Assembly: GCF_004339595.1 (NCBI RefSeq)
Contig: NZ_SMFU01000011.1
Location: 248,001-312,000, forward strand
DNA from: Marinobacterium mangrovicola
Lineage (GTDB): Bacteria; Pseudomonadota; Gammaproteobacteria; Pseudomonadales; Balneatricaceae
DNA: 64,000 nt
Reading direction: 5' to 3'
A program made the translations under genes and the position numbers. Positions 22,519-59,028 of this stretch are shown piece after piece (within the stretch, counting starts at the first letter, position 1; each line of letters begins with the position of its first letter). Under the pieces are notes generated by a model, which did not search any database, was not told the DNA's origin, and saw only the letters and a list, made by a program, of their open reading frames with translations.

Positions 22519-22534
22519 CATACAGTTGTGTATG
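22519..22534. promoter_or_regulatory. Candidate operator CATAC-N6-GTATG (copy 1)
   Basis: CATACAGTTGTGTATG is an inverted repeat with six central bases. It covers the expected transcription start, a position typical for repression. An exact match of the two half-sites lies at 56997, and one-mismatch matches lie at 34374 and 59013, all before catabolic or transport genes. Confidence 0.6.
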
Positions 22535-22552
22535 TTGAGTGTGGAGGAAGAG

Positions 22553-23371
22553 ATGGTCGAAGCGGATCGCAAGTACGTTCAGGCAGCGGGTCATGAGACT
22601 GCCTACTTCGAATGTGGCCAGGGTGCACCCCTGCTGTTGCTGCATGGTTCAGGCCCCGGCGTATCAGGCTGGACCAACTGGGGCGGTGTCATGGACCAGC
22701 TGGCAGAGAACTTTCACGTCATCGTTCCGGATATCGCCGGCTTCGGTTTTACCGAGTTCAAAGACGGTACCGAGTACGACATCAAGTTCTGGGTAAACCA
22801 CCTGGTTGAGTTCATGGATGCGCTGGGTATCGATCGCGCTTCCCTGGTGGGTAACTCCTTCGGTGGTGCTGTTGGTCTCGGTCTTGGGTTGTTCAATCCT
22901 GAGCGTCTCGACAAGCTGGTGCTGCTGGGTACGCCTGCAGGCACATTCCCGCAGACCAAGGGCCTGGCTGGCGCCTGGCTGTATGAGCCGTCCGTCGAGA
23001 ACATGCGTGCGCTGATGGAGCTCTTCCCCTACGACAAGAGCCTGATCACCGATGAACTGGTGCAGTCCCGCTACGAGGCCAGCGCCCGTGCCGGTGCCCA
23101 GGAAGCGCTGCGTAAGCTGATCCCCAAGCCGTCTGAAGATGGCGAAACCATGGTCAAGGCGTTCCCGGAAAAGGCAGTTCGCAACATCAAGGCCCAGACC
23201 CTGGTTCTGCACGGTCGTCAGGATGGCGTGGTGCCGCTGCAGTGTGGCCTTGCCCTGGCAGAGAATATTCCCAATGCCGACCTGTTCGTGTTCGCACAGT
23301 GCGGTCACTGGGTGCAGACGGAACAGAAACAGAAGTTTCTCAATATCGTAACCAGCTTTATTGGCGGGTAA
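22553..23371 (+). CDS. meta-Cleavage product C-C hydrolase (MhpC/BphD/DmpD type)
   Basis: A 272-residue alpha/beta hydrolase that should split the ring-fission product into 2-hydroxypenta-2,4-dienoate and a carboxylic acid. LLLLHGSGPGVSGWTNWGG is the oxyanion-hole block, followed by the triad S102 (GNSFGGA), D224 (HGRQDGVVP) and H252 (CGHWVQTEQ). The start at 22553 has GGAGGA six bases upstream; an in-frame ATG at 22439 lies before the promoter and is not credible. It is the first gene of the operon, six bases before the LigA-like gene. The acid it releases, and hence the substrate, is not readable from sequence. Confidence 0.93.
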   Translation: MVEADRKYVQAAGHETAYFECGQGAPLLLLHGSGPGVSGWTNWGGVMDQLAENFHVIVPDIAGFGFTEFKDGTEYDIKFWVNHLVEFMDALGIDRASLVGNSFGGAVGLGLGLFNPERLDKLVLLGTPAGTFPQTKGLAGAWLYEPSVENMRALMELFPYDKSLITDELVQSRYEASARAGAQEALRKLIPKPSEDGETMVKAFPEKAVRNIKAQTLVLHGRQDGVVPLQCGLALAENIPNADLFVFAQCGHWVQTEQKQKFLNIVTSFIGG

Positions 23372-23376
23372 GTCTG

Positions 23377-23661
23377 ATGAAACGAGATGTATTGGAACGG
23401 GTGTTGTGGAGCCTGTCGATCGACCGGTTCTCAAAAGAAAAATTCAAAGAAAACCCGGAAAAGTTCCTCGGCCGCTTCCCGTTGGATGCCGAGGATGTCC
23501 GCATGATCCTGGAGTTTGACGTCAAAAAGCTCCAGGAGGTTGGCGTGAATCCGATGCTGACAATGGGTTACTGGATCGAGATGTCTCCCGATCGACAGAT
23601 GTCTTCTTATAACAAAAAGCTCGGCTCTGAATCCGAGTACTCAGCGTCAATCAAGGGGTAA
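23377..23661 (+). CDS. LigA-like small subunit of class III extradiol dioxygenase
   Basis: A 94-residue helical protein of the LigA superfamily, the alpha subunit that caps the active site of LigAB-type dioxygenases. Recognisable features are the region NPEKFLGRFPLDAEDVRMIL and the LTMGYWIEMSPDR tail. It is separated from the catalytic LigB-like gene by only six bases, so the two should form one enzyme. In MhpB, the class III enzyme of phenylpropionate breakdown, no such subunit is present. Confidence 0.82.
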   Translation: MKRDVLERVLWSLSIDRFSKEKFKENPEKFLGRFPLDAEDVRMILEFDVKKLQEVGVNPMLTMGYWIEMSPDRQMSSYNKKLGSESEYSASIKG

Positions 23662-23667
23662 GCAGAT

Positions 23668-24510
23668 ATGGCACAGATAGTTGGCGGATTTTTGGTGCCG
23701 CATGATCCGGTCATGTTTGTCGCCGGTGATGCGGCGCCCGCGGACAAGGCTGAAAAGGTATGGGGCGCGTTTGAAACCTGCGCTCAGCGTCTGGCGGATA
23801 GCGGTGCAACCACCGTGATCATCGTCGGCAACGATCACTACATGCTGTTTGGCACTACCTGTCTGCCGAAGTACTGCATCGCGACCGGTCACCTGGAAGG
23901 TCCGCTGGATCAGCTTCCTGGCCTCAAGCGTGGCCAGATCGAGAACAACGAAGCGCTGGCAACGGCCATTGCCGAGCACGGTGCAGAGAACGGTTTTGAC
24001 TGGTCCGTAGCCCGCTCTTTCACCACCGATCACTCGTTCTCTATTCCGCACCAGTTGATCGTGCGTCGCGCTGAAGAGTTGAGCGGTCGCAGTATCGCGG
24101 CGATTCCGGTGTATCTGGCCAGCGCGGTGGACCCCTACATCACCACCGAGCGTTCCCGTGAGCTGGGTGCGCAGATGAATGCGGCGATTGAAGCCTTCGC
24201 CGGTGATGACAAGGTTGCGGTGATCGGTAGTGGCGGCATCAGCCACTGGGTCGGTACCAAAGAGTCCGGCAAGGTCAACGAAGCGTTTGACCGCCGCGTG
24301 ATCGACAGCTGCTGCAGCCTGGATATGGATGGCCTGGCCTCTCTGAGCAATGAAGAGATTCTCGAAGAGGGCGGTAACGGTGCGATGGAGATCCGCAACT
24401 TTCTGTGTGCCATGGCGGCCGTCAATCCGGTGAGTACCGATCTGGTTGAATACCAGCCGGTGCCGGAGTGGGTGACCGGGCTCGGATTCATTGAACTCAA
24501 GGTAGCGTGA
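23668..24510 (+). CDS. LigB-like class III extradiol ring-cleavage dioxygenase, catalytic subunit
   Basis: A 280-residue non-heme Fe(II) enzyme predicted to open a catechol ring next to the hydroxyls using O2. Likely iron ligands are H12 (GFLVPHDP) and H57 (GNDHY); further family histidines are in TTDHSFSIPHQL and GSGGISHWVG. It is not related to the BphC/DmpB type usually found with the downstream hydrolase and hydratase. Together with the preceding gene it forms a LigAB-like pair. The preferred catechol is unknown. Confidence 0.9.
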   Translation: MAQIVGGFLVPHDPVMFVAGDAAPADKAEKVWGAFETCAQRLADSGATTVIIVGNDHYMLFGTTCLPKYCIATGHLEGPLDQLPGLKRGQIENNEALATAIAEHGAENGFDWSVARSFTTDHSFSIPHQLIVRRAEELSGRSIAAIPVYLASAVDPYITTERSRELGAQMNAAIEAFAGDDKVAVIGSGGISHWVGTKESGKVNEAFDRRVIDSCCSLDMDGLASLSNEEILEEGGNGAMEIRNFLCAMAAVNPVSTDLVEYQPVPEWVTGLGFIELKVA

Positions 24511-24518
24511 GGGGCGAG

Positions 24519-24860
24519 ATGGATAAGGTATTTCTCTGCAAGGTATCTGACCTGGCGGAAAACGAAGTTAAGAAAATCGATAACAGCGAGCACGGTGATA
24601 TCGCCGTTTATAACCTCGGTGGTCAGTACTACGCAACGGCGGATCTGTGCACCCACGCAACAGCATCACTGGCGGAAGGCGATGTGGAAGATGATCTGAT
24701 CGTCTGCCCGGTGCATTGGGGTCAGTTCCATATCCCGACCGGCAAGGCGATGGGTTTCCCCTGTGAAATCGATCTGCGCACCTACCCGGTTGAGGTGGAA
24801 GGCGATGATATCTACGCCCTCGTCGAAGCGGCGGATGCGGCTCTGATTGCCAAAGGTTAG
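24519..24860 (+). CDS. Rieske ferredoxin of aromatic dioxygenase
   Basis: A 113-residue electron carrier between the reductase (33302-34294) and the oxygenase. The Rieske ligands are C44, H46 (LCTHATASL) and C63, H66 (CPVHWGQF). The start at 24519 follows GAGGGGCG; a GTG 12 bases upstream would add four residues. It lies between the ring-cleavage and oxygenase genes. Confidence 0.93.
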   Translation: MDKVFLCKVSDLAENEVKKIDNSEHGDIAVYNLGGQYYATADLCTHATASLAEGDVEDDLIVCPVHWGQFHIPTGKAMGFPCEIDLRTYPVEVEGDDIYALVEAADAALIAKG

Positions 24861-24873
24861 AGGATAGAGACTG

Positions 24874-26220
24874 ATGAGCAACATAATAAAAACTGTAGAC
24901 GTTACGGATAGCCTGGAAAATCTGAGCGAATTCTGTGATATCGAGAACGGCCGTATCTCCGGCAAGATCTTCTCTGATAAGGCGATTTACGAGCAGGAGC
25001 TGGAGAAAATCTTCGCCCGCTGCTGGCTGTTTGTCGCCCACGAATCACAGATTCCGAAGACCGGTGACTACATCACCACCACCATGGGTGAAGACGAAGT
25101 GATCGTCGTGCGCCAGAAAGATGGTGGTATCAAGGTTTTCCTTAACGCCTGCCCGCACCGTGGCAACAAGGTCTGTTTCGCCGAGTCCGGCAGCACCCGT
25201 GGCTTTATCTGTAACTACCACGGCTGGTCGTTCAATACCGCCGGTAACCTGGTGGGTCAGCATGAGTCCGGCATCTATGAAGCCAGCGACTTCGACAAGT
25301 CCAAATGGGGTCTGAAGGAAGTTGCCCAGGTCGATTCCTGGAAGGGGCTGGTATTTGCCACCTTCGATCCGGAAGCACCGACCCTGAAAGAGTACCTCGG
25401 TCCGATGACCTGGTACCTGGATGCGCTGTTCGACAACCAGGAAGGCGGCACCGAGTTTGCCGGTGGCTGTATCCGCTCCACCTATGAATGTAACTGGAAG
25501 ATCGCGGCGGAAAACTTCGTCGGCGATATCCTGCACGCCGGCTGGACCCACGACTCCGCAGCCCGTGCCATGCTCGGCGGTGCGGTGGCCAAGGTCAGCG
25601 ATTTTGAAGAGTCCTACTCCGTTAACTGGAACGGTCACGGCTACGAATTTGCCCTGGATACCGTCGGTAACGTGGCGGTACTCGGTGAGAGTGCGCTGAA
25701 CAAGTATGTCCATACCATCAAACCGTCTGTGGCAGAGCGTCTGGGCGAGTTCCGCTCCAACATGGTCGCGTCGGTGTCCTCCTGCACCATCTTCCCGAAC
25801 TTCTCCTTCCTGGCGGGGCAGAACACCATCCGTGTCTGGCAGCCGCGCGGTCCGAACAAGATCGAGCTGTTCAGCTGGGTGCTGGTCAACAAGAGCGCCC
25901 CGGACGATATCAAAGAGAAGTGGCGCAAGGGCGCAATGATGACCTTCTCGCCCACCGGCGTGTTCGAGATGGACGATGGCGAGAACTGGGAATACTGCAC
26001 CCGGACCTCCAAGGGCAAGGTGACCGGTGCTCAGGATCTCTATATCGGCCTGGGTATGAACACCCTGGAGCGACAGACCGACCTGCCGGCCAACGTTTAC
26101 AAGGGGCAGCTTAACGAGGCGAACGCCCGTGCCTACTACCAGCACTGGTACGACCATCTGAATGCGAAGAGCTGGTCGGAGATCCCGGATCGTAACGTTG
26201 GCAAGGCGGAGGTTGAATAA
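24874..26220 (+). CDS. Rieske ring-hydroxylating dioxygenase, large (alpha) subunit
   Basis: A 448-residue catalytic subunit expected to add both atoms of O2 to an aromatic ring, forming a cis-dihydrodiol. The Rieske site is CPHRGNK (C93, H95) and CNYHGWSF (C113, H116). The mononuclear iron site is ENFVGDILHAGWTH (D218 bridge, H221, H226), and the carboxylate ligand is in MDDGENW (about 367). Length and motifs fit the phenylpropionate/biphenyl/naphthalene group, not the oxygenases that lack a beta subunit. Two bases separate it from the beta gene. Confidence 0.94.
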   Translation: MSNIIKTVDVTDSLENLSEFCDIENGRISGKIFSDKAIYEQELEKIFARCWLFVAHESQIPKTGDYITTTMGEDEVIVVRQKDGGIKVFLNACPHRGNKVCFAESGSTRGFICNYHGWSFNTAGNLVGQHESGIYEASDFDKSKWGLKEVAQVDSWKGLVFATFDPEAPTLKEYLGPMTWYLDALFDNQEGGTEFAGGCIRSTYECNWKIAAENFVGDILHAGWTHDSAARAMLGGAVAKVSDFEESYSVNWNGHGYEFALDTVGNVAVLGESALNKYVHTIKPSVAERLGEFRSNMVASVSSCTIFPNFSFLAGQNTIRVWQPRGPNKIELFSWVLVNKSAPDDIKEKWRKGAMMTFSPTGVFEMDDGENWEYCTRTSKGKVTGAQDLYIGLGMNTLERQTDLPANVYKGQLNEANARAYYQHWYDHLNAKSWSEIPDRNVGKAEVE

Positions 26221-26222
26221 TC

Positions 26223-26771
26223 ATGGCAAACCAGACTGAGACTCAGGTTGAGCTGCGCCCGGTATCCATGGAGCAGCACCACAAGGTGTCCTGCTTCCTG
26301 GCTCGCGAGTACCGCCTGCTGGATGAGGAAAAGTTCGACGAATGGCTGGCGCTGATGCACGAGGATGTCCACTACTGGATGCCGGGCATCGAAAACCGTC
26401 GCCGTGAAAACCTGCTTGAGCACGGTTTCTACGCCAGCGATCACATGGCTTACTTCGACGACAAGCTGCGTGACCTGCAGCGCCGTGTGGCGCGCTTCCA
26501 GCAGCCTTCCGCCTGGGCGGAAAACCCGGGTACCCGTAATGTGCACCAGGTCTCCAATATCGAGGTGTACTACGGCGAAACCGACGGTGAATACCTGGTC
26601 CACTCGGTGTTTCAGAGCGTGCGTAGCCGCGGCATGGATGAAGAGTATGTCATCTACGGGCGCCGTACCGACGTGCTGGTAGAGGAGGGCGGCAGCTTCA
26701 AGCTGAAGAAACGCCTGATCCTGATCCCGAACGCGACACTGAGCTGCAAAAACATCAACACCTTCCTGTGA
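26223..26771 (+). CDS. Ring-hydroxylating dioxygenase, small (beta) subunit
   Basis: A 182-residue structural subunit (SnoaL-like fold) that assembles with alpha as alpha3beta3. Typical blocks are FLAREYRLLDEEKFDEWLAL (about 19-38), DVHYWMPG, then RNVHQVSNIEV and a C-terminal RLILIPNATLSCKNI. It lies directly after alpha and seven bases before the dihydrodiol dehydrogenase. Confidence 0.93.
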   Translation: MANQTETQVELRPVSMEQHHKVSCFLAREYRLLDEEKFDEWLALMHEDVHYWMPGIENRRRENLLEHGFYASDHMAYFDDKLRDLQRRVARFQQPSAWAENPGTRNVHQVSNIEVYYGETDGEYLVHSVFQSVRSRGMDEEYVIYGRRTDVLVEEGGSFKLKKRLILIPNATLSCKNINTFL

Positions 26772-26778
26772 GGGCGCT

Positions 26779-27561
26779 ATGAAAACGCTAGAAAGCAAAG
26801 TTGCGCTCGTCTCGGGTGGTGCCGATGGCATCGGTCGCGCCGTGGTCGAGCGCTACATCGCTGAAGGCGCCAAGGTCGCGGTGTTCGATATCAACGCCGA
26901 GAAACTGGAGTCTCTGAAGGCCGCGTACCCGGATGAGCTGATCACGGTGCACGGAGATGTCACCCGTTACGAAGATAACGAGCGCGCCGTTGCCGAAACA
27001 GTGGCCGCGTTTGGCAAGCTCGATATCTTTGTCGGCAACGCCGCGCTGTTCGACTACTTCGTACCGCTGCGTAAGATCGCGCCGGAACAGCTGGAAGAGA
27101 GCTTCGACAAGCTGTTCCACGTTAACGTGATGGGCTACATGAACGGCGTTCGCGCCGCGATGGCAGAGCTGAAAAAGAGTAAGGGAGCGGTGGTGCTCAC
27201 CGTGTCCAACTCCGGCTTCTATCCCGGCGGCGGCGGCATTCTTTACGTTACCGCTAAGCACGCAGTGGTTGGATTGATTAAGCAGTTGGCCTACGAGATG
27301 GCGCCGGATGTCAGGGTGAACGGCGTATCTCCGGGAGCCACCGATACCGAGATGAAATCGGTGGACGGAATCTCCGACCGGGCGCAGCCGCTGAACCATA
27401 TCCAGGGCTTCCGCGATAATGCCGCCAATGCGGTGCCGCTGAAGCGGATCGCGTCGCCTGCTGATCACACAGCCTTCTATGTTGTTCTGGCCTCCAACGA
27501 GCAGTCACCGATGACCACCGGTTGCGTCATCCACAGTGACGGCGGTTGGGTCGCCAGATAA
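26779..27561 (+). CDS. cis-Dihydrodiol dehydrogenase (SDR family)
   Basis: A 260-residue NAD+-dependent short-chain dehydrogenase that should turn the cis-dihydrodiol into a catechol, restoring the aromatic ring. The cofactor motif is GGADGIGR (13-20), D37 fits NAD preference, and the active site is S143 with Y156 and K160 (YVTAK). GFYPGGGGILYVTAKHA matches the HcaB/BphB group. Position between the oxygenase and downstream genes supports the role. Confidence 0.92.
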   Translation: MKTLESKVALVSGGADGIGRAVVERYIAEGAKVAVFDINAEKLESLKAAYPDELITVHGDVTRYEDNERAVAETVAAFGKLDIFVGNAALFDYFVPLRKIAPEQLEESFDKLFHVNVMGYMNGVRAAMAELKKSKGAVVLTVSNSGFYPGGGGILYVTAKHAVVGLIKQLAYEMAPDVRVNGVSPGATDTEMKSVDGISDRAQPLNHIQGFRDNAANAVPLKRIASPADHTAFYVVLASNEQSPMTTGCVIHSDGGWVAR

Positions 27562-27585
27562 GAAATAAACGGGAGCATAACAATA

Positions 27586-28524
27586 ATGAGTATTTTCGAT
27601 ACCACCCGACTGCCGCTGCTGGTGGCACCCATGTTTCTCGTATCGTCGCCGCAGCTGGCTATCGCTGCAGCACGTTCCGGGGTTGTTGGCAGCCTGCCGG
27701 CGGCCAATGCGCGCAGCGTGGAAACCCTCGATGAGTGGATGTCCGAAATCCACGCCGAGCTCAGCGGTGAAGGCCTGCCCTGGCTGTTCAATATGATTGT
27801 CCACTCCACCTACGACCGCTTTGATCGTGAGATTGAGCTGGTGCGCAAGTATCAGCCCTCCATCGTCTCCACGGCGCTGGGCTCCCCGGCTCGGGTGATG
27901 GAGGTGGTGAAGGGCTACGGCGGCCAGGTTTACGCCGATGTCATTACCCCGGCCATGGCGAAAAAATCGATCGCAGCCGGTGTCGATGGTCTGATCCTGG
28001 TGACCCAGGGCGCCGGTGGTCATACCGGTCGCTATAACCCGCTGGCCTTTATCGCTGAAGTACGTGAGTTCTGGGATGGGCCACTGGGCATCGCTGGCTG
28101 TATCTCTCGGGGTGACGATATCGGCGGGATGCTGGCAGCAGGCGCTGACTTTGTGGTGTCCGGTACCCGCTTTATCGCTGCTGACGAAAGCTTCGCTGTC
28201 GATGAGTACAAGCAGATGCTGGTCGATTCCGCCATGGAAGGTGTGGTTGAAACCAAGGCGGTCAGCGGCGTGCTGGCCAACTGGATGACCGCAAGTCTCG
28301 AGAAGTGTGGCATCTCCCCGGACGACAAGGGCGACGACAAGGTAATCGACTTCTCCGGCGATATCTCCACCGCCAACAAGGCCTGGAAAGATGTCTGGTC
28401 TGCCGGCCAGGGTGTGGGCGTGACCAAAGAGGTGAAGAGCTGCCTCGACATCGTCGACGAGATGCACACAGAGTTTGTCGAGTCCCTGCAGAGAGTCAAC
28501 CAGCTGTCAGAAAGGTACCTCTAA
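27586..28524 (+). CDS. Nitronate monooxygenase-like flavoprotein (copy 1)
   Basis: A 312-residue TIM-barrel FMN protein of the nitronate monooxygenase/2-nitropropane dioxygenase family. RLPLLVAPMFLVSSPQLA begins the barrel, and TQGAGGHTGRYNPLAF is the conserved flavin and active-site loop with its histidine. No nitro chemistry is expected in this operon. Some family members, such as IpdC in steroid breakdown, work as flavin-dependent dehydrogenases on CoA esters, which would suit the CoA ligase two genes downstream. That role is inference. The TAA overlaps the hydratase ATG. A related gene lies at 39608-40582. Confidence 0.85.
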   Translation: MSIFDTTRLPLLVAPMFLVSSPQLAIAAARSGVVGSLPAANARSVETLDEWMSEIHAELSGEGLPWLFNMIVHSTYDRFDREIELVRKYQPSIVSTALGSPARVMEVVKGYGGQVYADVITPAMAKKSIAAGVDGLILVTQGAGGHTGRYNPLAFIAEVREFWDGPLGIAGCISRGDDIGGMLAAGADFVVSGTRFIAADESFAVDEYKQMLVDSAMEGVVETKAVSGVLANWMTASLEKCGISPDDKGDDKVIDFSGDISTANKAWKDVWSAGQGVGVTKEVKSCLDIVDEMHTEFVESLQRVNQLSERYL

Positions 28525-29303
28525 TGTCCAGTTCAGAGTTCAATGCTGTTGCGCAGCAGATAATTAAAGCTAGAGCCGAAGCCTGCGCTATCGATCCCAT
28601 CTCGGGTGCTTACCCCCACTTCGATATGGATGATGCCTACGCGATCCAGAAGCTGGTCAATGCCGCCCGCGTTGACGACGGTGGTCGCGTGGTCGGCTAC
28701 AAGATCGGCCTCACGTCCAAGGCGGTTCAGGAGCAGCTCGGCGTCGGCCAGCCCGACTACGGTGTGCTGTTCGCGGATATGGAGCTGCGCCAGGGCGAGG
28801 TACTTGATACCAGCGGCCTGATCGCCCCCAAGGCCGAAGGTGAAATCGGCTTCGCATTCAAAAACGATATCGACCGCAGTGACCTCACGCTGATGGAGCT
28901 GCAGGCCGAAATCGACTTCTTTTTCCCGGTGATCGAGATCGTTGATTCCGTGGTGCGCGACTGGAAGATCGGCATCGTCGATACCATCGCGGATAACGCA
29001 TCCTCCGCGCGTTACATGATCGGTACCAAAACCTTCAGCCCGCGCGGCGTCGACTTCGGCGAACTGCCGCTGACGATCAGTGCGCCTCAGGGCGAGATCA
29101 AGGGTGTCGGTCGGGCCTGTCTCGGTAATCCGCTGTACGCCACTCACTGGCTGGTGAAAAAGCTCATCGAGCTGGATGTGCCGGTCAAACGCGGACAGAT
29201 CGTGCTGTCTGGGGCCATGGCGCCGATGGTACCGATTACGCCAAACAGTGAGATCGCTTTCGACTTCGAAGGACTTGAACGTCTGGTGCTCACTTCGCGC
29301 TGA
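28524..29303 (+). CDS. mhpD: 2-Hydroxypenta-2,4-dienoate hydratase
   Basis: A 259-residue hydratase of the MhpD/DmpE/BphH family that converts 2-hydroxypenta-2,4-dienoate to 4-hydroxy-2-oxovalerate. GYKIGLTSKAVQEQLGVGQP, APKAEGEIGF (metal-binding glutamates) and PLYATHWLVKKL are family blocks. The ATG at 28524 overlaps the previous stop (TAATG); a longer in-frame reading inside the upstream gene is discounted. It supplies the aldolase at 32274. Confidence 0.93.
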   Translation: MSSSEFNAVAQQIIKARAEACAIDPISGAYPHFDMDDAYAIQKLVNAARVDDGGRVVGYKIGLTSKAVQEQLGVGQPDYGVLFADMELRQGEVLDTSGLIAPKAEGEIGFAFKNDIDRSDLTLMELQAEIDFFFPVIEIVDSVVRDWKIGIVDTIADNASSARYMIGTKTFSPRGVDFGELPLTISAPQGEIKGVGRACLGNPLYATHWLVKKLIELDVPVKRGQIVLSGAMAPMVPITPNSEIAFDFEGLERLVLTSR

Positions 29304-29336
29304 GAAGCCCACAAGTACAAAAAGAAGGGTTAAGTT

Positions 29337-31166
29337 ATGGGTGAAAATATCTACGCTTCGCTGCCGGCTACCCAAACGTCGGTAACCCAGGAACCGGATG
29401 GTTCCTTCATTGTGGCGTCGCAAACCGAGCTCAAGCCGTATGAGCGTTGCGTCGGCGACTGGCTGGAGCGCTGGGCTGAAGAGCGCGGCGACCAGATCTT
29501 TATCGGTGAACGCCAGGGAGAGGGCTGGCGCGCGCTGGGCTATCGTGAGTTCCGTAACTCCGTACACCGCGTTGCCCAGGGGCTGTTGAATCTGGGGCTG
29601 GCCGACCGTGGTCCCCTGGTGATCCTGTCCGGTAACTCGGTGGATCACGCGCTGATCATGATGGCGGCCATGCATATCGGCATCCCGGTGACCTCGGTCT
29701 CCGTGGCCTATTCTCTGGTGGCCAAAACCCACGAGAAACTGGCATCAATTGTTGAGCGGCTGCGCCCTTGCGCTGTGTATGCCGATGATGCGCTGCAGTT
29801 TGCCGATGCGCTCGCCGCCTGTGAGGGTGTCGAGACATTTATCTCATCCCGCAATCACCTGGAGAGCGACGGTGTGTTGCCGTTTGAGCAGCTGCTCAAT
29901 ACACAGGCCACCGACGCGGTAACCGAGCGTTTCAACGCGTTGACGCCGGAAAGCCACGCCAAGTACATGCTGACCTCCGGCTCCACCGGCGTGCCCAAGG
30001 TGGTGGTGAACACCCAGCGTATGCTCTGCTCCAACCAGCAGATGGTGGCCCAGTATTACTCCTTCCTGGAAAGTGATACGCCGCGTGTCCTCGACTGGCT
30101 GCCGTGGAGCCACACCTTCGGTACCAACCATAACTTCAACCTGGTGCTCAGAAACGGCGGCACCCTGTATATCGATAACGGTAAACCGGTGCCGGGTCTG
30201 ATCGAAGAGAGCGTGCGCAATCTCAAGGAGATCAAGCCGAACCTCTACTTCAACGTGCCCAAGGGGTTTGAAGTGCTGCTGGGTTATCTGCGCGAGGATG
30301 AATCCTTCCGCCAGAGCTTCTTCTCCAGCGTCAACATGCTGTTTTACGCCGCAGCGGCACTGCCGGGCCCGATCTGGGATGAGTTGAAGGAGATGTGTGC
30401 CGAGACCGGGAACGACGTTTTCTTCACCACTGAATGGGGCTCCACCGAGACCGCGCCGGCCAACACCAACGTTCACTGGCGTCTTGAAAAGGCCGGCAAT
30501 ATCGGTATTCCGCTGCCGGGCGTGCAGATCCGCTTTGTGCCCAACGGCTCCAAGCTGGAGATGCGTATCAAGGGCCCGAACGTGTTCAGCGAGTATCTCA
30601 ACGACCCGGAAACCACCGCGGATTCCTTTGACGAGCAGGGCTTCTACCGCATTGGCGATGCTGGTCGCCTGGTGGACCCGGAAGATGCCTCCAAGGGGAT
30701 CCTGTTCGACGGCCGTGTATCGGAAGACTTCAAACTCTGCACCGGTACCTGGGTCTGTGTCGCCACGATCCGCGCCAATGTGCACAAGTACCTGGGCGAC
30801 CTGGTGGCCGATGCGGTCGTCACCGGCCATGACCAGGATTACCTGGGCCTGATGCTGGTACCCGGTCCGGGTATGCGCAAGCTGGCAGGGGACAAGGACG
30901 GCACTATGACCGGCAGCGAACTGATGGCGAATCCGGCGGTCCGCAGTGCGCTTGAGAACGAACTGGTCGTGATGGCTAAGCAGTCACGAGGCTCAGCTCA
31001 GCGGGTTTGCCGCGCACTGATCCTGGAGACGCCGCCGTCTCTGGAGCAGGGCGAGGTTACCGATAAGGGCAACCTGAATCAGCGTCGGCTGCTAGAAACG
31101 CGCGCCGAATATGTGCAACGGCTCTATGACGCAGATGTACATGAGAGCGTTATCAGCATCATTTAA
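29337..31166 (+). CDS. Feruloyl-CoA-synthetase-like acyl-CoA ligase
   Basis: A 609-residue AMP-forming ligase. The P-loop is LTSGSTGVPK, and LDWLPWSHTFGTNHNFNLVL, GRVSEDFKLCTGTWV and the C-terminal GEVTDKGNLNQRRLL are blocks that mark the feruloyl-CoA synthetase branch. It should join an aryl or aryl-acrylate acid to CoA with ATP. No feruloyl-CoA hydratase/lyase (Ech) lies in the operon, so it may act on the incoming acid or on the acid released by the C-C hydrolase. It lies between lower-pathway genes, with a small gene fossil directly after it. Confidence 0.87.
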   Translation: MGENIYASLPATQTSVTQEPDGSFIVASQTELKPYERCVGDWLERWAEERGDQIFIGERQGEGWRALGYREFRNSVHRVAQGLLNLGLADRGPLVILSGNSVDHALIMMAAMHIGIPVTSVSVAYSLVAKTHEKLASIVERLRPCAVYADDALQFADALAACEGVETFISSRNHLESDGVLPFEQLLNTQATDAVTERFNALTPESHAKYMLTSGSTGVPKVVVNTQRMLCSNQQMVAQYYSFLESDTPRVLDWLPWSHTFGTNHNFNLVLRNGGTLYIDNGKPVPGLIEESVRNLKEIKPNLYFNVPKGFEVLLGYLREDESFRQSFFSSVNMLFYAAAALPGPIWDELKEMCAETGNDVFFTTEWGSTETAPANTNVHWRLEKAGNIGIPLPGVQIRFVPNGSKLEMRIKGPNVFSEYLNDPETTADSFDEQGFYRIGDAGRLVDPEDASKGILFDGRVSEDFKLCTGTWVCVATIRANVHKYLGDLVADAVVTGHDQDYLGLMLVPGPGMRKLAGDKDGTMTGSELMANPAVRSALENELVVMAKQSRGSAQRVCRALILETPPSLEQGEVTDKGNLNQRRLLETRAEYVQRLYDADVHESVISII

Positions 31167-31180
31167 TGGGTGAGAACAAT

Positions 31181-31315
31181 ATGGCTAAGAAGCTTAATGC
31201 CGTGATCATCGGCCCGGGCTGCTCTTCAGGGGTAAGCCGGTACAGATCTGCTGATGAAAATGAAACGTTCAGCGTGGATCGAGCCCTGCTCGTCATGAGT
31301 TCACAGATTAATTAA
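31181..31315 (+). pseudogene. Fossil of acetaldehyde dehydrogenase 5' end
   Basis: The 44-codon frame begins MAKKLNAVIIGPG, nearly the same as [13 protein letters not shown] of the intact gene 154 bases on. It then loses register. The bases about 31241-31284 again match the intact gene (CAGATCTGCTGATGAAAATG; 31375-31418 there), now read in another frame, and a stop follows at 31313. This is a truncated, frameshifted tandem copy of the first 30 or so codons of mhpF. It keeps an ATG, but no product is expected. Confidence 0.85.
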
Positions 31316-31334
31316 GTGACCGGGAGATAGGTTA

Positions 31335-32249
31335 ATGAGCAAAAAACTGAAAGCAGTCATTATCGGCCCCGGTAACATCGGTACTGATCTGCTGATGAAA
31401 ATGAAACGTTCAGAGTGGATTGAGCCGGTCTGGATGGTGGGTATCGACCCTGAATCCGAAGGCCTCAAGCGCGCCCGTGAAATGGGCATCAAAACCTCTG
31501 CCGAGGGTGTCGACGGCATTCTCGACAAGGTGATCGAAGATGATATCCGCGTCGCGTTTGATGCTACCTCTGCCTATGTCCACGCCGAAAACAGCCGCAA
31601 GCTGAATGAGCTTGGCGTGATCATGGTCGATCTGACGCCGGCCGCCATCGGCCCGTTCTGTGTGCCGCCGGTCAACCTGGCCGCGCACGCCAAGAACCTG
31701 GAGATGAACGTCAACATGGTGACCTGCGGTGGCCAGGCGACGATCCCGATGGTCGCAGCTGTTTCCCGAGTTCAGCCGGTTGAATACGGCGAGATCATCG
31801 CCACGGTTTCATCTCGTTCCGTGGGCCCGGGTACACGTCAGAACATCGACGAGTTTACCCGTACCACTGCCGGCGCGGTGGAGAAGGTAGGCGGCGCGAA
31901 GAAAGGCAAGGCGATCATCATCATCAACCCGGCGGAGCCGCCGTTGATCATGCGAGACACCGTGCACTGCCTGACCGAAGGCGAGCCGAACCAGGATGCG
32001 ATCACCGAGTCGGTCCATCAGATGGTGGCCGAGGTGCAGAAATATGTGCCGGGCTATCGCCTGGTAAACGGCCCGGTCTTTGATGGCAACCGCGTTTCCA
32101 TGTTTATGGAAGTGGAAGGACTTGGTGACTTCCTGCCGAAGTACGCCGGCAACCTGGACATCATGACCGCTGCGGGCCTGCGTACCGCCGAGATGTTTGC
32201 CGAAGAAGCGGCGAGCGGTGCTATCGATTTGCCGGCACGCGGCCAATAA
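31335..32249 (+). CDS. mhpF: Acetaldehyde dehydrogenase (acylating)
   Basis: A 304-residue enzyme that oxidises acetaldehyde to acetyl-CoA with NAD+ and CoA. The nucleotide motif is [12 protein letters not shown] (9-20), and the catalytic cysteine is C131 in [10 protein letters not shown]. In this family the enzyme channels acetaldehyde from the aldolase, encoded next. GGGAGATAGG lies before the ATG. A broken copy of its 5' end precedes it. Confidence 0.95.
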
Positions 32250-32273
32250 GCCTGGGACGGAGGAGAACAGACA

Positions 32274-33302
32274 ATGAATCTGCAAGGTAAGAAAGTCCGT
32301 CTGCACGACATGAGCCTGCGTGACGGCATGCATGCAAAGCGCCACCAGATCAGCCTGAAAGAGATGGTGGATGTAGCCACGGCGATGGATGAGGCGGGGA
32401 TGCCGCTGATCGAAGTCACCCACGGTGATGGCCTAGGCGGTTCGTCGGTCAACTACGGTTTTCCGGCACACTCAGACGAGGAGTACCTGGGCGCCGTTAT
32501 CCCGAAGATGAAGCAGGCCAAGATTTCGGCGCTGCTGCTGCCGGGTATCGGCACCGTCGATCACCTGAAAATGGCCAAGGAGCTGGGCGTCTCCACCATC
32601 CGTGTGGCGACCCACTGCACCGAGGCGGACGTGTCCCAGCAGCACATCACCATCGCCCGTGAGATGAATATGGACACCGTGGGCTTCCTGATGATGGCGC
32701 ACATGGTTCCGGCCGAGAAGATTCTCGAACAGGCCAAACTGATGGTCGGCTACGGCGCCAACTGCATCTACTGCACCGACTCCGCCGGCTACATGCTGCC
32801 GGAAGAGGTCAGCGCCAAGATCGGTCTGCTGCGTGCCGAACTGCCGGACAATATTGAGATCGGCTTCCATGGTCATCACAACATGGCGATGGGTGTGGCC
32901 AACTCACTGGCGGCGATCGAAGCCGGCGCTGCCCGTATCGATGGATCCGTTGCGGGCCTCGGTGCCGGTGCCGGTAATACCCCGCTGGAAGTGCTGTGTG
33001 CGGTGCTGGATCGCATGGGCTGCGAAACCGGTATCGATCTCTACAAGATCATGGATGTGGCGGAAGACCTGATCACGCCGATGATGGATCAGCCGATCCG
33101 TGTCGATCGTGACTCCCTGACCCTGGGCTACGCCGGTGTTTACTCCTCCTTCCTGCTGTTCGCTCAGCGCGCGGAGAAAAAATACGGCATCTCAGCCCGT
33201 GACATTCTGGTAGAGCTGGGTCGTCGTGGCACCGTGGGTGGCCAGGAAGACATGATCGAAGATCTGGCCCTGACCATGGCGAAGCAGAAAGGAGTGGTCT
33301 GA
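32274..33302 (+). CDS. mhpE: 4-Hydroxy-2-oxovalerate aldolase
   Basis: A 342-residue Mn2+-dependent class II aldolase (DmpG/MhpE/BphI) that cleaves 4-hydroxy-2-oxovalerate to pyruvate and acetaldehyde. The metal and base residues are R16, D17, H20 (LRDGMH) and H199, H201 (GFHGHHN). GGAGGAG precedes the ATG. Its stop overlaps the start of the reductase gene (TGATGG). Confidence 0.95.
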
Positions 33303-34294
33303 TGGCTGTTGAAGTCAGAGTCGAGCCGTCTGGTAAGAGCTTCAGCGTCGAAGAGGGGCAGAGTGTGCTGGAGGCTGGCCTGAAGGCCGGCGTTACTCTC
33401 AAGCACAGCTGCCGGGATGGTCAGTGCGGCGAATGCCGCACCACCATCGTCTCCGGGCAGGTCGCTTACGCCGATGAGGTGAAAGACAAGCTGGTCGAAA
33501 CCGACCTGGATGGCGTCACTGGCCTGATGTGCCAGGCGCGCCCGAGCAGTGATCTGGTAGTGGATGCCCCCGAGGTTACCGAGCTGGAAGGGATCAGTAT
33601 CCAGAAGTTCCCGGTCCGAGTGCTGGCCAAAGAGGTGTTGTCGGACGACGTGGTGGTGCTGCGTTTAGGTCCGGCACCCGGTATCGAGTTCCGCTGCATG
33701 CCTGGTCAGTACATCGACCTGCAGATGAAAGATGGCAACAAGCGCAGCTACTCCGTAGCGGCAACGGATGATAGTGGCCAGATCGAACTGCATATCCGCA
33801 AGATGCCGGGTGGTGTGGTTAGCGGCTTTATCTACGATGAGCTTAAGGCCAAGGCGATCCTCACCGCTGAAGGGCCGTTCGGGACTTTCTATATCCGCGA
33901 GGGTGAGGCTCCGATCATTCTGACCGCCAGTGGCACCGGTTTTGCGCCGATCAAGGCGATCATCGAACAGCTGGTGCGTGAGGATAACAGCCGTCCCGTG
34001 GTGCTCTACTGGGGTGGTCGTCGTAAGGCGGACCTCTATTACCACCAGATGTGTCTGGACTGGGGTAAAGAGTTGTCCTGGTTGACCTATGTGCCGGTGC
34101 TGTCCGAAGAGGAGGGCGACTGGGATGGCCGTACCGGCTTTGTGCATCAGGCGGTGGTGGATGATATCCCCGATATGTCCGGTTATGAGGCTTATGTCTG
34201 TGGCGCGCCCATCGTGGTCAGCTCGGCGCGGACAGACTTCGTAGAAAAATGCGGCCTGGACCTGGCCAATTTCCATAGTGATGCCTTCCTCTGA
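33302..34294 (+). CDS. Dioxygenase reductase (2Fe-2S ferredoxin plus FAD/NAD domains)
   Basis: A 330-residue NAD(P)H-dependent reductase. The plant-type 2Fe-2S domain comes first (C37, C42, C45 in CRDGQCGEC, and C77). The FAD motif RSYSVAA (148-154) and the nucleotide-binding ASGTGFAPIKAI (about 202-215) follow. With the Rieske ferredoxin and alpha/beta subunits this gives a three-component system of the naphthalene-dioxygenase layout, unlike HcaD, which lacks the plant-type ferredoxin. It is the last gene of the operon and lies 7 kb from the oxygenase genes; a terminator follows. Confidence 0.92.
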   Translation: MAVEVRVEPSGKSFSVEEGQSVLEAGLKAGVTLKHSCRDGQCGECRTTIVSGQVAYADEVKDKLVETDLDGVTGLMCQARPSSDLVVDAPEVTELEGISIQKFPVRVLAKEVLSDDVVVLRLGPAPGIEFRCMPGQYIDLQMKDGNKRSYSVAATDDSGQIELHIRKMPGGVVSGFIYDELKAKAILTAEGPFGTFYIREGEAPIILTASGTGFAPIKAIIEQLVREDNSRPVVLYWGGRRKADLYYHQMCLDWGKELSWLTYVPVLSEEEGDWDGRTGFVHQAVVDDIPDMSGYEAYVCGAPIVVSSARTDFVEKCGLDLANFHSDAFL

Positions 34295-34373: not shown

Positions 34374-34389
34374 CATTCACAGCTGTATG
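34374..34389. promoter_or_regulatory. Candidate operator CATTC-N6-GTATG (copy 2, one mismatch) over a promoter
   Basis: Matches the 22519 site but for one base, and is followed by TT as there. TTGTTT (34363-34368) and TATGTT (34386-34391) are 17 bases apart, so the site would cover the spacer and -10 of a promoter facing the TRAP genes, though about 150 bases before dctP. Confidence 0.45.
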
Positions 34390-34466: not shown

Positions 34467-34492
34467 AAAAAGATACATTAATGTATCTTTTT
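34467..34492. promoter_or_regulatory. Perfect 26-bp palindrome before dctP
   Basis: All 26 bases are symmetric about 34479.5, with core GATACATTAATGTATC bounded by A5 and T5. TTGAAA (34462-34467) and TATCTT (34484-34489) with 16 bases between could form a promoter overlapping it. It could be the operator of the adjacent AraC or TetR regulator, or a bidirectional terminator, since a T-run follows on either strand. Confidence 0.6.
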
Positions 34493-34536: not shown

Positions 34537-35568
34537 ATGAAAAAATGTCGTAACCTAGCCGCAGCTCTCTGTGCTTCAATCTCACTCACCGTTGGTGGTA
34601 ACGCACTGGCGGACGATACCCTGACGCTGAGATACAACCAGTGGTTCCCGTCTTCTCACTGGTCCCAGGTTGATGGTCTGCTGGACTTCTTCCGGCAGGT
34701 TGAAACCGTCACTGATGGACGTGTCAAAATCCAGCCTTCTGCCAAGCCGTTGGCGCCGCCAAACCGAAACTACCAGGCGGTAACCAGTGGTATAGCGGAT
34801 GTGGCCTGGGGCCCGCACGGCTATACGCCGGGCGCCTTCCCGCTGACCGAGATGGTCGAATTCCCCTTTGATACCGTCGATGCTGAAAAAAGCTCCATTG
34901 CTTACTGGCGTACATTCAAAGAGCACTTCCAGCCCACCGGCATGCAGGAAGACGTGGTCACTCTGGCGATGCATGTGACCTCTGGTGGCAATATCCATAT
35001 GAAGGATGACGCGGTGGTTACTCCGGAAGATCTCAGTGGTAAGAAAATCCGTGTGCAGACACCGGTGGTTTCCAATGCACTGCAGGAACTGGGCGTATCG
35101 CCGATCTCAGGCTCTTTGGTTGAGCTGCGTGAATTCCTTTCCCGCGGCGTGATTGATGGCACTGCGCTCTCTGATGAGTTCGTGACCGGCTTCAAAATCG
35201 ACAAATATGTTAATCACGTGACCCGTATTCCTGGTGGCCTCTATTCCAACTCTGCGTTCATCATCATGAACAAAGACAAGTGGGATCAGATCAGCCCGGA
35301 AGATCAGGCCGCGATCCGGAAAATTTCCGGCGAGGTACTGTCTGCACGGATGGGCAAGCTGTGGGACGAGAACGACCTGAAAGGGCGTGAGTTCCTCAAG
35401 GCCAAGCTCGGCGAAGAGTATCGTGAAGCGTCTCCCGAGCTGATGGATGCGCTGGCCGAGGCCTTCGCCCCTCAGCGTGCAGAGTGGTTCAACGTCGCTA
35501 ACGAGAACGGTGTCGACGGTAAAGCGGTGATGGATTTCTACCGCAACGAGATCGATTCCCTGCAGTAA
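34537..35568 (+). CDS. dctP: TRAP transporter substrate-binding protein (DctP family)
   Basis: A 343-residue periplasmic binding protein that captures the substrate for the DctQM permease. The signal peptide covers about residues 1-25 (cleavage near ALA-DDT). The body shows the family's core: LRYNQWFPSSHW near the start, the hinge region GKKIRVQTPVVSNALQELG (the arginine that grips the substrate carboxylate), and VTRIPGGLYSNSAFIIMNKD. TRAP systems carry organic acids using the Na+ gradient. Placement beside the aromatic operon suggests an aromatic or arylalkanoic acid. Confidence 0.92.
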   Translation: MKKCRNLAAALCASISLTVGGNALADDTLTLRYNQWFPSSHWSQVDGLLDFFRQVETVTDGRVKIQPSAKPLAPPNRNYQAVTSGIADVAWGPHGYTPGAFPLTEMVEFPFDTVDAEKSSIAYWRTFKEHFQPTGMQEDVVTLAMHVTSGGNIHMKDDAVVTPEDLSGKKIRVQTPVVSNALQELGVSPISGSLVELREFLSRGVIDGTALSDEFVTGFKIDKYVNHVTRIPGGLYSNSAFIIMNKDKWDQISPEDQAAIRKISGEVLSARMGKLWDENDLKGREFLKAKLGEEYREASPELMDALAEAFAPQRAEWFNVANENGVDGKAVMDFYRNEIDSLQ

Positions 35569-35584
35569 GCCCCAGCGCTTGTGT

Positions 35585-35618
35585 AGCTCCCTGCGCCTCA
35601 GGGCAGGGAGCTCTTTTT
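35585..35618 (+). terminator. Intra-operon terminator between dctP and dctQ
   Basis: AGCTCCCTG (35585-35593) pairs with CAGGGAGCT (35604-35612), then CTTTTT. It would lower transcription of the permease relative to the binding protein, which such importers need in excess. Confidence 0.75.
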
Positions 35619-35661
35619 AACCACTTATTTTTCCTCTGCGGATCTATAGAAGAGGCCGCCT

Positions 35662-36138
35662 ATGCCTTTCTCTGTGCTAAAGCTTCTCGAGAGTCTCTGT
35701 TCCCGGGTCGCTGTACTTGCTGCGCTCCTGATGGCGCTAATCATCGTGGTCGACGTAATCGGACGTAATATCTTTAACGCATCTCTGGGTTTCTCTTATG
35801 AGGTGGTCTCTATCTCACTGGCGGTGATGTTTTATTCCGGGCTCTACCACGTCCATAAAACACGCAGCCATGTGACGATCGACCTGCTGGATAAATACTT
35901 CGTCGGTGGTTTAGGGCGTTTTGTTTTCTGGTTTGTCTATCTGATCGAGTGCGTTTTCTTTACCGCGCTGGTGGTGACCGTATTTATGCAGTCCTACGAG
36001 TCATACAAGTTCGGGGACGTGTTCCTGTTCCTGGGTGTTTACAAGTGGAAGGTGATTCTCGGCATCGCAATATTGGCCCTGATCGCCTGGATCAGCCTGC
36101 TGGTGGCTGCGCCGCAGCGACATCTGCGTGAAGAATAA
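35662..36138 (+). CDS. dctQ: TRAP transporter small permease (DctQ family)
   Basis: A 158-residue membrane protein with four hydrophobic helices (about 16-36, 49-66, 88-110, 129-148). The family residues GRNIFNASLGFSYEV after helix 1 and TRSHVTIDLLDKYF in the first cytoplasmic loop are visible. It pairs with the large permease encoded next, 18 bases on. Confidence 0.9.
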   Translation: MPFSVLKLLESLCSRVAVLAALLMALIIVVDVIGRNIFNASLGFSYEVVSISLAVMFYSGLYHVHKTRSHVTIDLLDKYFVGGLGRFVFWFVYLIECVFFTALVVTVFMQSYESYKFGDVFLFLGVYKWKVILGIAILALIAWISLLVAAPQRHLREE

Positions 36139-36156
36139 GAGTGGTGGGTTAAAAAA

Positions 36157-42186: not shown

Positions 42187-42228
42187 TGTTGACACATAAT
42201 AAACAGATGTGTTCAAAATAAGTCAACA
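42187..42228. promoter_or_regulatory. Divergent promoter region with nested inverted repeats
   Basis: TGTTGAC (42187-42193) faces GTCAACA (42222-42228). Inside, TTGACACAT (42189-42197) faces ATGTGTTCAA (42207-42216) with one extra base. On the minus strand TTGACT and TTTATT (42226-42221 and 42203-42198) are 17 bases apart and could drive the TetR gene. These are good candidate operators for it. Confidence 0.55.
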
Positions 42229-52294: not shown

Positions 52295-52304
52295 GGAGCC
52301 AGTC

Positions 52305-54628: not shown

Positions 54629-54631
54629 GGG

Positions 54632-55087: not shown

Positions 55088-55149
55088 GGGACCTCTGCCA
55101 ATGGTTTATAGAGTTAAAAGGTAAACGCAACTCCTTGCCGGGTGCTGCA

Positions 55150-56884: not shown

Positions 56885-56996
56885 CAAACGTCCCTTGTTG
56901 TTTTTGTTGTCAGGGCTTACTGGGGACTAACACCCTGATTATGTTGTATCCACTCAGGGCTTATCCAGCAAAGTTTATAGAATCAGAATTTTCCTA

Positions 56997-57012
56997 CATA
57001 CACTATCGTATG
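56997..57012. promoter_or_regulatory. Candidate operator CATAC-N6-GTATG (copy 3)
   Basis: CATACACTATCGTATG has the same half-sites and spacing as the site at 22519 and is likewise followed by TT. It lies in the gap between the sensor kinase and acyl-CoA dehydrogenase genes, 148 bases before the latter. Confidence 0.6.
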
Positions 57013-57159
57013 TTCAAAGCTAGCCTGTGACCCTACAAAGCAGCTTGATTAGACCCTGTTGCCGGGTTCGGTTCCGTTTCTGTCGGGTAGCCGTATCGGC
57101 AGAGAAAAAATCCAAGCTGCAGCCAAGAAATATAAAAACAAACGTAGGCAGGCTGACCG

Positions 57160-58950
57160 ATGAGCTATCAAGCACCTCTGGATGAGTTGCGTTTCCTGAT
57201 CAACGAGCTGGTGGACCTGGAAAAGGCCACAGGTAAGAACGATCTGGTCAGCGATGACCTGGTGTTCTCTATCTGGGAAGAGGCCGGCCGATTTGCAACA
57301 GGGGTTCTCGAACCTCTGAACCGTCCGGGAGACTGCGAAGGACTGAGATTCGAGGATGGCGAGGTCAAAACCCCCGCAGGGTTTGTCGGCGCTTATCGCC
57401 AGTTGACCGAGATGGGCTGGAACAGCGTAGGTCTGCCTGAAGAGCTCGGTGGGCAGGGGCTGCCCTGGCTGGTCAGCTCTCCGATCACCGAGATGTTCAG
57501 CTCCGCCAACAAGGCATTTAACATGTGCGCCGGACTGACCCAGGGCGCCATCGAAGCGATCAACCTGATCGGCTCAGCCTATATCAAAGAACTTTATCTT
57601 GAGCCCATGGTGGCCGGCCGATGGACCGGGACCATGAACCTCACTGAGCCCCAGGCCGGTTCCGACGTCGGCGCCATCCGCACCCGGGCGATTCCTCAGC
57701 CCGATGGCACCTACCGTATCTCCGGGCAGAAAATATTTATCTCTTTCGGTGAGCATGATCTCGCCGAAAACATCATCCATCTGGTCCTTGCTCGCCTGCC
57801 CGACGCTCCTGAAGGTGTGCGTGGCATCTCCCTGTTTCTGGTGCCCAAGTTCCTGGTCAACGATGATGGCTGCCTGGGTAACAGAAACGACCTGCAGTGC
57901 GTCTCTATCGAACACAAGCTAGGTATTCACGCCAGTCCCACCTGTACCTTGGTATTTGGCGATCAGGGCGGCGCCACGGGCTATCTGCTAGGTGAGCCCA
58001 ACCGCGGCCTGGCGGCGATGTTCGTGATGATGAATGCGGCGCGCCTCACCGTGGGTATGGAAGGGGTTGCGTCGGCGGAAGCGGCGCTGCAGAAAGCCCG
58101 GGCCTACGCCTTTGAACGGGTACAGGGCAGCAAGGCGGAAGATCCGTCCACTGCTGTGGCTATTGCCGAGCATGAAGATGTGCGCCGCATGCTGATGCTT
58201 ATGACCTCCCGCACCCGCGCCATGCGCGCCATGGCGATGGTGATCGCCGAAGCCCAGGATTTGTGCGAGAGCAGTGACGATACCGCCGAGTCTGCCCGGC
58301 AGCACACCTTCGTCAGTCTGATGACACCGATCTTTAAAGCTTGGGCGACGGAGTCCGCCGTTGAGGTTGCCTCGCTGGCGATCCAGATTCATGGCGGCAT
58401 GGGCTTTGTCGAAGAGACCGGCGTTGCCCAGATCTGGCGGGACTCGCGTATCTGCCCAATCTACGAAGGCACCACAGGGATTCAGGCAAACGACTTGGTG
58501 AGCCGCAAACTGCTGCGGGATAAGGGCGAGGGACTATCGCTGCTGGTGGCAAAAATACGCACCACGCTGCAGGAATCCCAGGCTTTCGCCACGGAACTGC
58601 GCAAACCGATCAGTGCGCTGGAAGAGGCGCTGAACAGTCTCGAAGGCTGCGCCGAGCGGATCATCGCGCTCGGCGACTCGGGTATCGAGAACATCCGCTT
58701 TATCTCCGTTCCTTTCCTCATGCTGGCGGGTAATACCGTCGGCGGCTGGCTAATGCTGCAGTGCGCTGTGCGTGCGTTGCAGGCACGGGGCTCTGAACGC
58801 TACGCAGAGCAGACCCTCGAATCCTGGCGCCAGAGCGCAGAGTTTTACAGCCGTTACACCCTGGCCGAAGTCCACGGACTGGAGAGGCAGGTGCTCAACT
58901 ATCTAGAAGACGCCGCCGCCGCGCCCGCCGCGGACATTTTTCGCTACTGA
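57160..58950 (+). CDS. Acyl-CoA dehydrogenase, large FadE5/AidB-like type with C-terminal domain
   Basis: A 596-residue FAD enzyme with the extra C-terminal ACDH_C domain (about 470-590). TEPQAGSDVGAIRTRA is the FAD/substrate loop, and the catalytic glutamate is kept in CPIYEGTTGIQ (about 444). The N-terminal extension matches the long group. It should desaturate an acyl- or aryl-alkanoyl-CoA. AGGCAGG precedes the ATG. It and the ligase after it are separated by a 124-base gap that contains a candidate operator. Confidence 0.92.
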   Translation: MSYQAPLDELRFLINELVDLEKATGKNDLVSDDLVFSIWEEAGRFATGVLEPLNRPGDCEGLRFEDGEVKTPAGFVGAYRQLTEMGWNSVGLPEELGGQGLPWLVSSPITEMFSSANKAFNMCAGLTQGAIEAINLIGSAYIKELYLEPMVAGRWTGTMNLTEPQAGSDVGAIRTRAIPQPDGTYRISGQKIFISFGEHDLAENIIHLVLARLPDAPEGVRGISLFLVPKFLVNDDGCLGNRNDLQCVSIEHKLGIHASPTCTLVFGDQGGATGYLLGEPNRGLAAMFVMMNAARLTVGMEGVASAEAALQKARAYAFERVQGSKAEDPSTAVAIAEHEDVRRMLMLMTSRTRAMRAMAMVIAEAQDLCESSDDTAESARQHTFVSLMTPIFKAWATESAVEVASLAIQIHGGMGFVEETGVAQIWRDSRICPIYEGTTGIQANDLVSRKLLRDKGEGLSLLVAKIRTTLQESQAFATELRKPISALEEALNSLEGCAERIIALGDSGIENIRFISVPFLMLAGNTVGGWLMLQCAVRALQARGSERYAEQTLESWRQSAEFYSRYTLAEVHGLERQVLNYLEDAAAAPAADIFRY

Positions 58951-59012
58951 TCAGATATCTGCCCGTCTCTGGTGCTCATTAAGCCTGGCCAGGAACGGAT
59001 AATAATAAATTG

Positions 59013-59028
59013 GATACATAACTGTATG
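59013..59028. promoter_or_regulatory. Candidate operator GATAC-N6-GTATG (copy 4, one mismatch)
   Basis: GATACATAACTGTATG keeps ATAC-N6-GTAT and differs from the exact sites in one outer base. It lies 46 bases before the CoA-ligase start. Confidence 0.45.

Follow-up and report, generated by a model that had tools for sequence, protein, structure and literature searches.

The CymR regulon of p-cymene and p-cumate catabolism in Pseudomonas putida F1 and Burkholderia xenovorans LB400 combines, in the available part of its description (PMC5224996), one TetR-type repressor and several palindromic operators with a ring-hydroxylating dioxygenase and a meta-cleavage pathway ending in a hydratase, an aldolase and an acetaldehyde dehydrogenase. 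Here, we report a computational analysis of a 64,000-nucleotide stretch of the Marinobacterium mangrovicola genome (assembly GCF_004339595.1, contig NZ_SMFU01000011.1, positions 248,001 to 312,000; the whole stretch is referred to as the window), which carries a ring-cleavage operon, a TRAP transporter (dctPQM), a TetR-family regulator (TetR1) and a recurrent inverted repeat. The type of regulon that we propose is already known, with CymR as its nearest known logic, a likeness drawn from regulon layout and not from the sequence of the regulator. The CymR operator, ACAAACAGAC-N6-GTCTGTTTGT in the same source, differs from the ATACA-N4-TGTAT core of the repeat in the window.

A further point of comparison is the Escherichia coli hca pathway, as the NCBIfam models for HcaE and HcaB and the structure PDB 8k0a are the nearest named models and structure for the alpha subunit of the dioxygenase. 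The dihydrodiol dehydrogenase passes the PRK06200 cut-off, and the alpha subunit reaches 400 bits with the HcaE equivalog model NF042946, far below its cut-off of 830. Since the dioxygenase is nearest to the 3-phenylpropionate/cinnamate type yet falls below the HcaE cut-off, the substrate is no more than presumed to be an aryl-alkanoic or cinnamic-type acid. Unlike E. coli hca, the operon in the window includes a CoA ligase and an NMO-like protein. HcaR of E. coli is a LysR-type protein. An ATACA-N4-TGTAT operator was not described among the matches listed in the literature searched (titles and abstract openings), no paper there was returned for the literal operator strings, and the available parts of PMC9956071 and PMC4349456 held nothing bearing on the operator. 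PA3973, a TetR protein with an acyl-CoA dehydrogenase neighbour, was considered as a parallel and set aside, the motif in the available part of its description being unrelated (PMC9736018).

The repeat, with the consensus AACATACA-N4-TGTATGTT, is very probably the operator of TetR1, which would co-repress ring cleavage, uptake through dctPQM and side-chain genes. The sites, their conservation, their placement at promoters and their co-occurrence with TetR1 were established by computation. The features concerned are listed below; scores and ranks are those of the matrix described further on.

22487..22515, plus strand: sigma-70-like promoter TTGACG-N17-TATATT of the ring-cleavage operon, a consensus match and not a mapped promoter
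22519..22534: predicted operator CATACAGTTGTGTATG of the ring-cleavage operon, 3 bases past its -10-like hexamer (score 23.3, rank 3)
22553..34294, plus strand: ring-cleavage operon, gene order kept in relatives
34374..34389: second predicted operator ahead of dctP, CATTCACAGCTGTATG, 98 bases upstream of 34472 (score 24.1, rank 2)
34472..34487: predicted operator ahead of dctP, GATACATTAATGTATC, within a 26-base perfect palindrome (score 26.9, rank 1)
34537..37437, plus strand: TRAP transporter dctPQM (PF03480, PF04290, PF06808)
38473..39129, minus strand: TetR1, proposed repressor (PF00440)
56997..57012: operator-like site CATACACTATCGTATG, flanked by the histidine kinase and acyl-CoA dehydrogenase genes (score 19.8, rank 5)
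57160..58950, plus strand: acyl-CoA dehydrogenase (Pfam), candidate regulon member
59013..59028: operator-like site GATACATAACTGTATG ahead of the CoA ligase gene, exact core match (score 21.3, rank 4)
59075..60769, plus strand: CoA ligase (AMP-binding; Pfam), candidate regulon member
22276..22291: weak operator-like site ahead of a divergent dienelactone-hydrolase-like gene (21527-22258, minus strand; score 10.2)

The initial annotation had reported an inverted repeat CATAC-N6-GTATG, exact at 22519-22534 and 56997-57012 and with one mismatch at 34374-34389 and 59013-59028, and all four copies are present there. Its estimate that such a pattern is expected far less than once in 64 kb holds for exact copies (approximately 0.04 expected, as derived from genome-wide counts) but not for copies with up to one mismatch (approximately 0.85). 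The description of all copies as intergenic depends, at 22519, on the start of the hydrolase gene: the match of relatives to the hydrolase suggests ATG 22553, which places the site outside the coding sequence, whereas a longer alternative frame from GTG 22439 spans it. At up to two mismatches, the window held 22 matches against 16.5 expected, a number equalled or exceeded in 11 of 100 shuffles. Across the 4.98 Mb genome, exact copies numbered three against two for a reversed-pattern control, and copies with up to one mismatch 66 against 52; two of the three exact copies fall in the window, which is suggestive, yet this was selected after the fact. On their own, in one genome, the four copies are weak evidence.

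A motif that resembles chance in one genome became clear once relatives were used. The improved motif obtained from them, ATACA-N4-TGTAT, occurs exactly seven times in the genome, three of these in the window, and with up to one mismatch 58 times against 25 for the control; at this level the window holds eight copies where 0.75 are expected. The strongest site of the window, GATACATTAATGTATC, had been overlooked by the initial annotation and lies closer to dctP than the copy at 34374. Outside the window, the exact core sites of the genome (L118-L121) received scores from 7.0 to 18.5, the top one falling within a frame of 412 residues; AraC-like and pobA-like genes flank one of these sites, and GntR/MocR-like and exporter-like genes another (gene names by eye).

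Conservation ahead of orthologous operons, which had been named as a check, was found across the family. The hydrolase (at least 76% identity) is present in 14 of the 116 family genomes searched and a TetR1 orthologue in 15, including all 14 with the hydrolase; the fifteenth (G004) is a fragmented draft with a best hydrolase match of 45%. The hypergeometric probability of this co-occurrence is 4e-17, a figure that ignores shared ancestry. Twelve of the 15 genomes with TetR1 belong to Marinobacterium lutimaris, M. zhoushanense, M. ramblicola, a Marinobacterium metagenome-assembled genome (MAG), M. sediminicola, M. halophilum, M. iners, Amphritea atlantica, an Oceanospirillales MAG and three Nitrincola species; the window is closest to M. 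lutimaris (hydrolase 99%). All 14 family clusters have the palindrome upstream of the hydrolase with no more than one mismatch, against an average of 0.03 in dinucleotide shuffles. Ahead of dctP it occurs in five of 14 at up to one mismatch (shuffles 0.02) and in ten of 14 at up to two (shuffles 0.27), and a second dctP site is similarly placed in M. lutimaris and G005. Six of the 15 regions upstream of TetR1 have it at up to one mismatch (shuffles 0.015), two of these inside a neighbouring frame (photolyase-like by eye); these two, in G012 and G048, were for that reason rejected as signs of autoregulation. The 16 loci of paralogous hydrolases compared (identity 38-46%; two lie in genomes with TetR1; locus L011 and remoter paralogues were left out) gave no match better than three mismatches.

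The site also keeps its place at the promoter. In all 14 hydrolase promoters it begins 3-4 bases past a -10-like hexamer whose partner element reads TTGACA or TTGACG, and the promoter equivalents match nine to 11 of the 12 consensus bases. At dctP, the site at 34472 falls between the two elements of a possible TTGAAA/TATCTT promoter (by eye), in their 16-base spacer.

We built a symmetric matrix of 20 columns from 22 training sites, none from the GTDB genus of the window. Ten were hydrolase promoters of three other genera, in which some species likewise bear the name Marinobacterium, and the remaining sites came from twelve loci belonging to Pseudomonas, Alcanivorax and a Pantoea-labelled strain. 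The scan covered the window and, genome-wide, 50 of 58 core matches at up to one mismatch. In the window, the five highest positions were 34472, 34374, 22519, 59013 and 56997 (26.9, 24.1, 23.3, 21.3 and 19.8), followed by 22216 (10.6), 22276 (10.2) and then 3.6, while the best score across 40 shuffled windows was 14.6; in ten further shuffles, one had a single position of at least 14. The same five sites rank as the top five among the scored genome matches, where the sixth (18.5) lies within a coding frame. The four copies noted initially are therefore true outliers, with a fifth beside them. In the fetched clusters of 13 relatives, 60 sites scored at least 13 (a duplicated stretch in G029 counted once; ten of the 60 belonged to the training set) and three of them lay well inside frames of at least 100 residues.

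More distant relatives were reached by scanning genome contigs with the TetR1 alignment, which returned 38 loci. In 12 distant loci, a TetR1 orthologue (46-51%) is divergent from an orthologous ring-cleavage operon with the operator in between; in six of these 12, a liv-type ABC transporter follows TetR1 and sites are also found ahead of the transporter. In a Colwellia MAG and an Oceanobacter MAG, TetR1 is near dctPQM with sites ahead of dctP. A matrix made from the 14 family promoters alone found 68 sites scoring at least 12 across 26 distant loci, where shuffles gave 0.9 (at most six sites counted per locus; five of the 68 are a recurrent coding match). This recurrent match, CATCCAGTAGTG(G/A)ATG in five distant loci, falls within the coding sequence of the dioxygenase alpha subunit and was put down to chance. 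For homologues of approximately 29-35% identity, among them those of Mesorhizobium, Nonomuraea and a Sphingomonadales MAG, CATACAGTGCTGTATG-like sites lie close to the start of the homologue itself; loci L161, L168 and L170 have none. Plasmid pTTS12 of P. putida S12 carries a TetR1 homologue (51%) beside ring-cleavage genes and a chemoreceptor, with its best sites ahead of an AraC-type gene (17.7), beside the TetR gene (17.4) and ahead of the chemoreceptor (16.1). The available part of PMC9537497 places the phenylpropionic acid cluster of pTTS12 with an efflux pump, and given this placement we did not equate that cluster with the TetR1-homologue locus.

For the regulator, the initial annotation had left a choice between a NarL-type response regulator, the first TetR protein and the AraC protein, and co-occurrence, synteny and the sites beside its own gene in distant relatives single out TetR1. 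Binding of the repeat by another regulator (the AraC protein, the response regulator or TetR2) is very improbable: all three are encoded in the window and the 56997 site adjoins the two-component genes, but the best match of the response regulator in the other 14 genomes does not exceed 37%, and the AraC protein is matched at 92% in M. lutimaris, at 39-43% in three further members of the genus and at 32% in another genome, with nine genomes giving no match at 1e-30. TetR2 is absent from the fetched clusters, no genome-wide search for it having been made, and has a different inverted repeat upstream. This repeat, at 42187-42228 (two 19-base arms, 74% complementary), lies upstream of TetR2 and a divergent liv/fad operon and is possibly the operator of TetR2 itself.

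By its sequence and predicted fold, TetR1 is a TetR-family protein. Its TetR_N helix-turn-helix (PF00440) scores 44.7 bits against a cut-off of 24, and the predicted model is all-helical with ten helices, a TetR fold, although model confidence is moderate (mean pLDDT 71, lower in the helix-turn-helix). The best fold match is QacR (E 8.8e-05, TM 0.62 to the query); QacR and FadR-type TetR proteins (PDB 3br0, 5gpc, 6azh) are its best fold and sequence matches in the PDB, from which it differs in having an identity of only 11-20% in the fold matches. The family-model search reached no named equivalog for TetR1. The alignment of orthologues suggests a start at residue 17, which would give 38473-39081.

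We infer binding and repression by TetR1, and an inducer, from this arrangement. A TetR1 dimer would sit on the ring-cleavage promoter at its start region (22519); at dctPQM it would occupy the promoter or a position close by (34472, supplemented by 34374), and in this strain it would also bind ahead of the acyl-CoA dehydrogenase (56997) and the CoA ligase (59013) genes. Repression would be lifted when TetR1 takes up a pathway ligand, either an aromatic acid or a CoA thioester, in the classical TetR mode, resulting in joint induction of uptake, ring cleavage and side-chain activation. We found no description of this aromatic-acid pathway, which is shared by Marinobacterium, Amphritea, Nitrincola and Pseudomonas; such a scheme would give it a regulator and a predicted operator, predicts the importers, porins and chemoreceptors that belong to the regulon, and offers a compact repressor-operator pair open to direct testing.

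Of the regulon suggested initially, which joined uptake, ring cleavage and side-chain oxidation, the first two parts are strongly supported as a shared regulon by conservation across genera. Because neither the acyl-CoA dehydrogenase (at most 51% in ten others) nor the CoA ligase (no match at 1e-190 in the other 115 genomes, with up to 12 candidates scored per genome) has a close orthologue in the relatives searched, the side-chain part is drawn from the site scores, by which both genes are probably under TetR1 in this strain. TetR1 might instead govern only the conserved core of ring cleavage and TRAP uptake, with 56997 and 59013 as functionless chance or decayed copies; the missing orthologues fit this, as do the core mismatch and the lowest score of the five at 56997. 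We regard it as unlikely, as 59013 (21.3) and 56997 (19.8) far exceed the shuffled windows (14.6) and lie ahead of pathway-type genes, and M. lutimaris likewise gained a site ahead of another accessory uptake operon. That the copies as a whole are chance matches chosen after the fact has practically no probability left. CATAC-N6-GTATG is near its control genome-wide and its loose matches show no excess, but the out-of-genus matrix returns the same sites as its top five and all 14 clusters conserve the site; for 22519 and the dctP region, the conservation largely excludes chance.

Several observations nevertheless weigh against TetR1 as the common repressor. The window has no site upstream of TetR1 (score -2.2), and clear ones are found there in only some relatives; four of the 14 dctP regions match only at three mismatches; 56997 and 59013 have no orthologous context in which conservation could be seen; and the related genomes are not independent observations. 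Two sites also fold well as RNA: 34472, in an A-tract/T-tract palindrome, at -9.9 kcal/mol (z -4.1) and 22519 at -12.6 kcal/mol (z -3.8), as would be expected if the palindromes were hairpins or terminators and not operators. That explanation is scarcely credible, since 56997 (z -1.4) and 59013 (z 0.0) fold not notably better than shuffles and the bases themselves are conserved, not pairing alone; the constant place of the site, 3-4 bases after the -10 hexamer, argues for DNA binding over an RNA hairpin.

Beyond the core, the operator under TetR1 may have travelled with a changing set of genes. Tentatively, one TetR subfamily may have retained a single operator in Oceanospirillales, in Pseudomonas and in bacteria further away, with turnover of the genes that it controls; the exchanged modules could include a TRAP importer, an ABC importer, a porin and a chemoreceptor, and here the acyl-CoA dehydrogenase and ligase, a reading that we consider possible but short of likely. 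If true, a catabolic regulon would take in a new module for uptake, sensing or side-chain processing whenever that module gains one site of 16-20 bases.

The ring-cleavage operon begins with genes for a C-C hydrolase, a LigB-type extradiol dioxygenase, a ferredoxin, the Rieske dioxygenase alpha and beta subunits and the dihydrodiol dehydrogenase, followed by the NMO-like protein, a hydratase, the CoA ligase, an acetaldehyde dehydrogenase, an aldolase and a reductase. The AraC gene comes after dctPQM and is convergent with TetR1, beyond which lie TetR2 with the divergent liv/fad operon, the two-component pair, the acyl-CoA dehydrogenase and the CoA ligase. Both weak matches, 22216 and 22276, are at the divergent gene upstream of the ring-cleavage operon; several relatives have stronger, similarly placed sites at the dienelactone-hydrolase-like gene, and in relatives sites occur ahead of either this gene or a DcaP-like gene. 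In the window, the larger liv/fad operon, the AraC gene, DcaP, the second dctP and the TetR1 gene have no site. The second DctP-type solute-binding protein (62191-63309) is near the window end. M. lutimaris (G003) has a strong operator (27.7; L034:12667-12682) ahead of a second dctP of its own, a gene missing from the window at the corresponding place, and a CoA-ligase-like frame follows downstream.

In Nitrincola tibetensis, tandem operators 19 bases apart (L111:18731-18765) precede a Porin_4 gene divergent from TetR1, with similar tandem operators in N. tapanii and N. alkalisediminis; the Porin_4 domain was established in N. tibetensis and the frames of the other two are known by position. 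In Pseudomonas aegrilactucae, a strong site (27.4; L148:19057-19072) is found where the gene for a chemoreceptor bearing an sCache_2 domain begins, and in P. bharatica CSV86 (L147) the TetR1 homologue adjoins a chemoreceptor. Palindromes of the CATACAAACGTG type, sharing an AAACGTG half, were seen at three places in M. lutimaris (G003:C18:788574, C18:999656 and C14:449869) and are possibly the operator of a different regulator.

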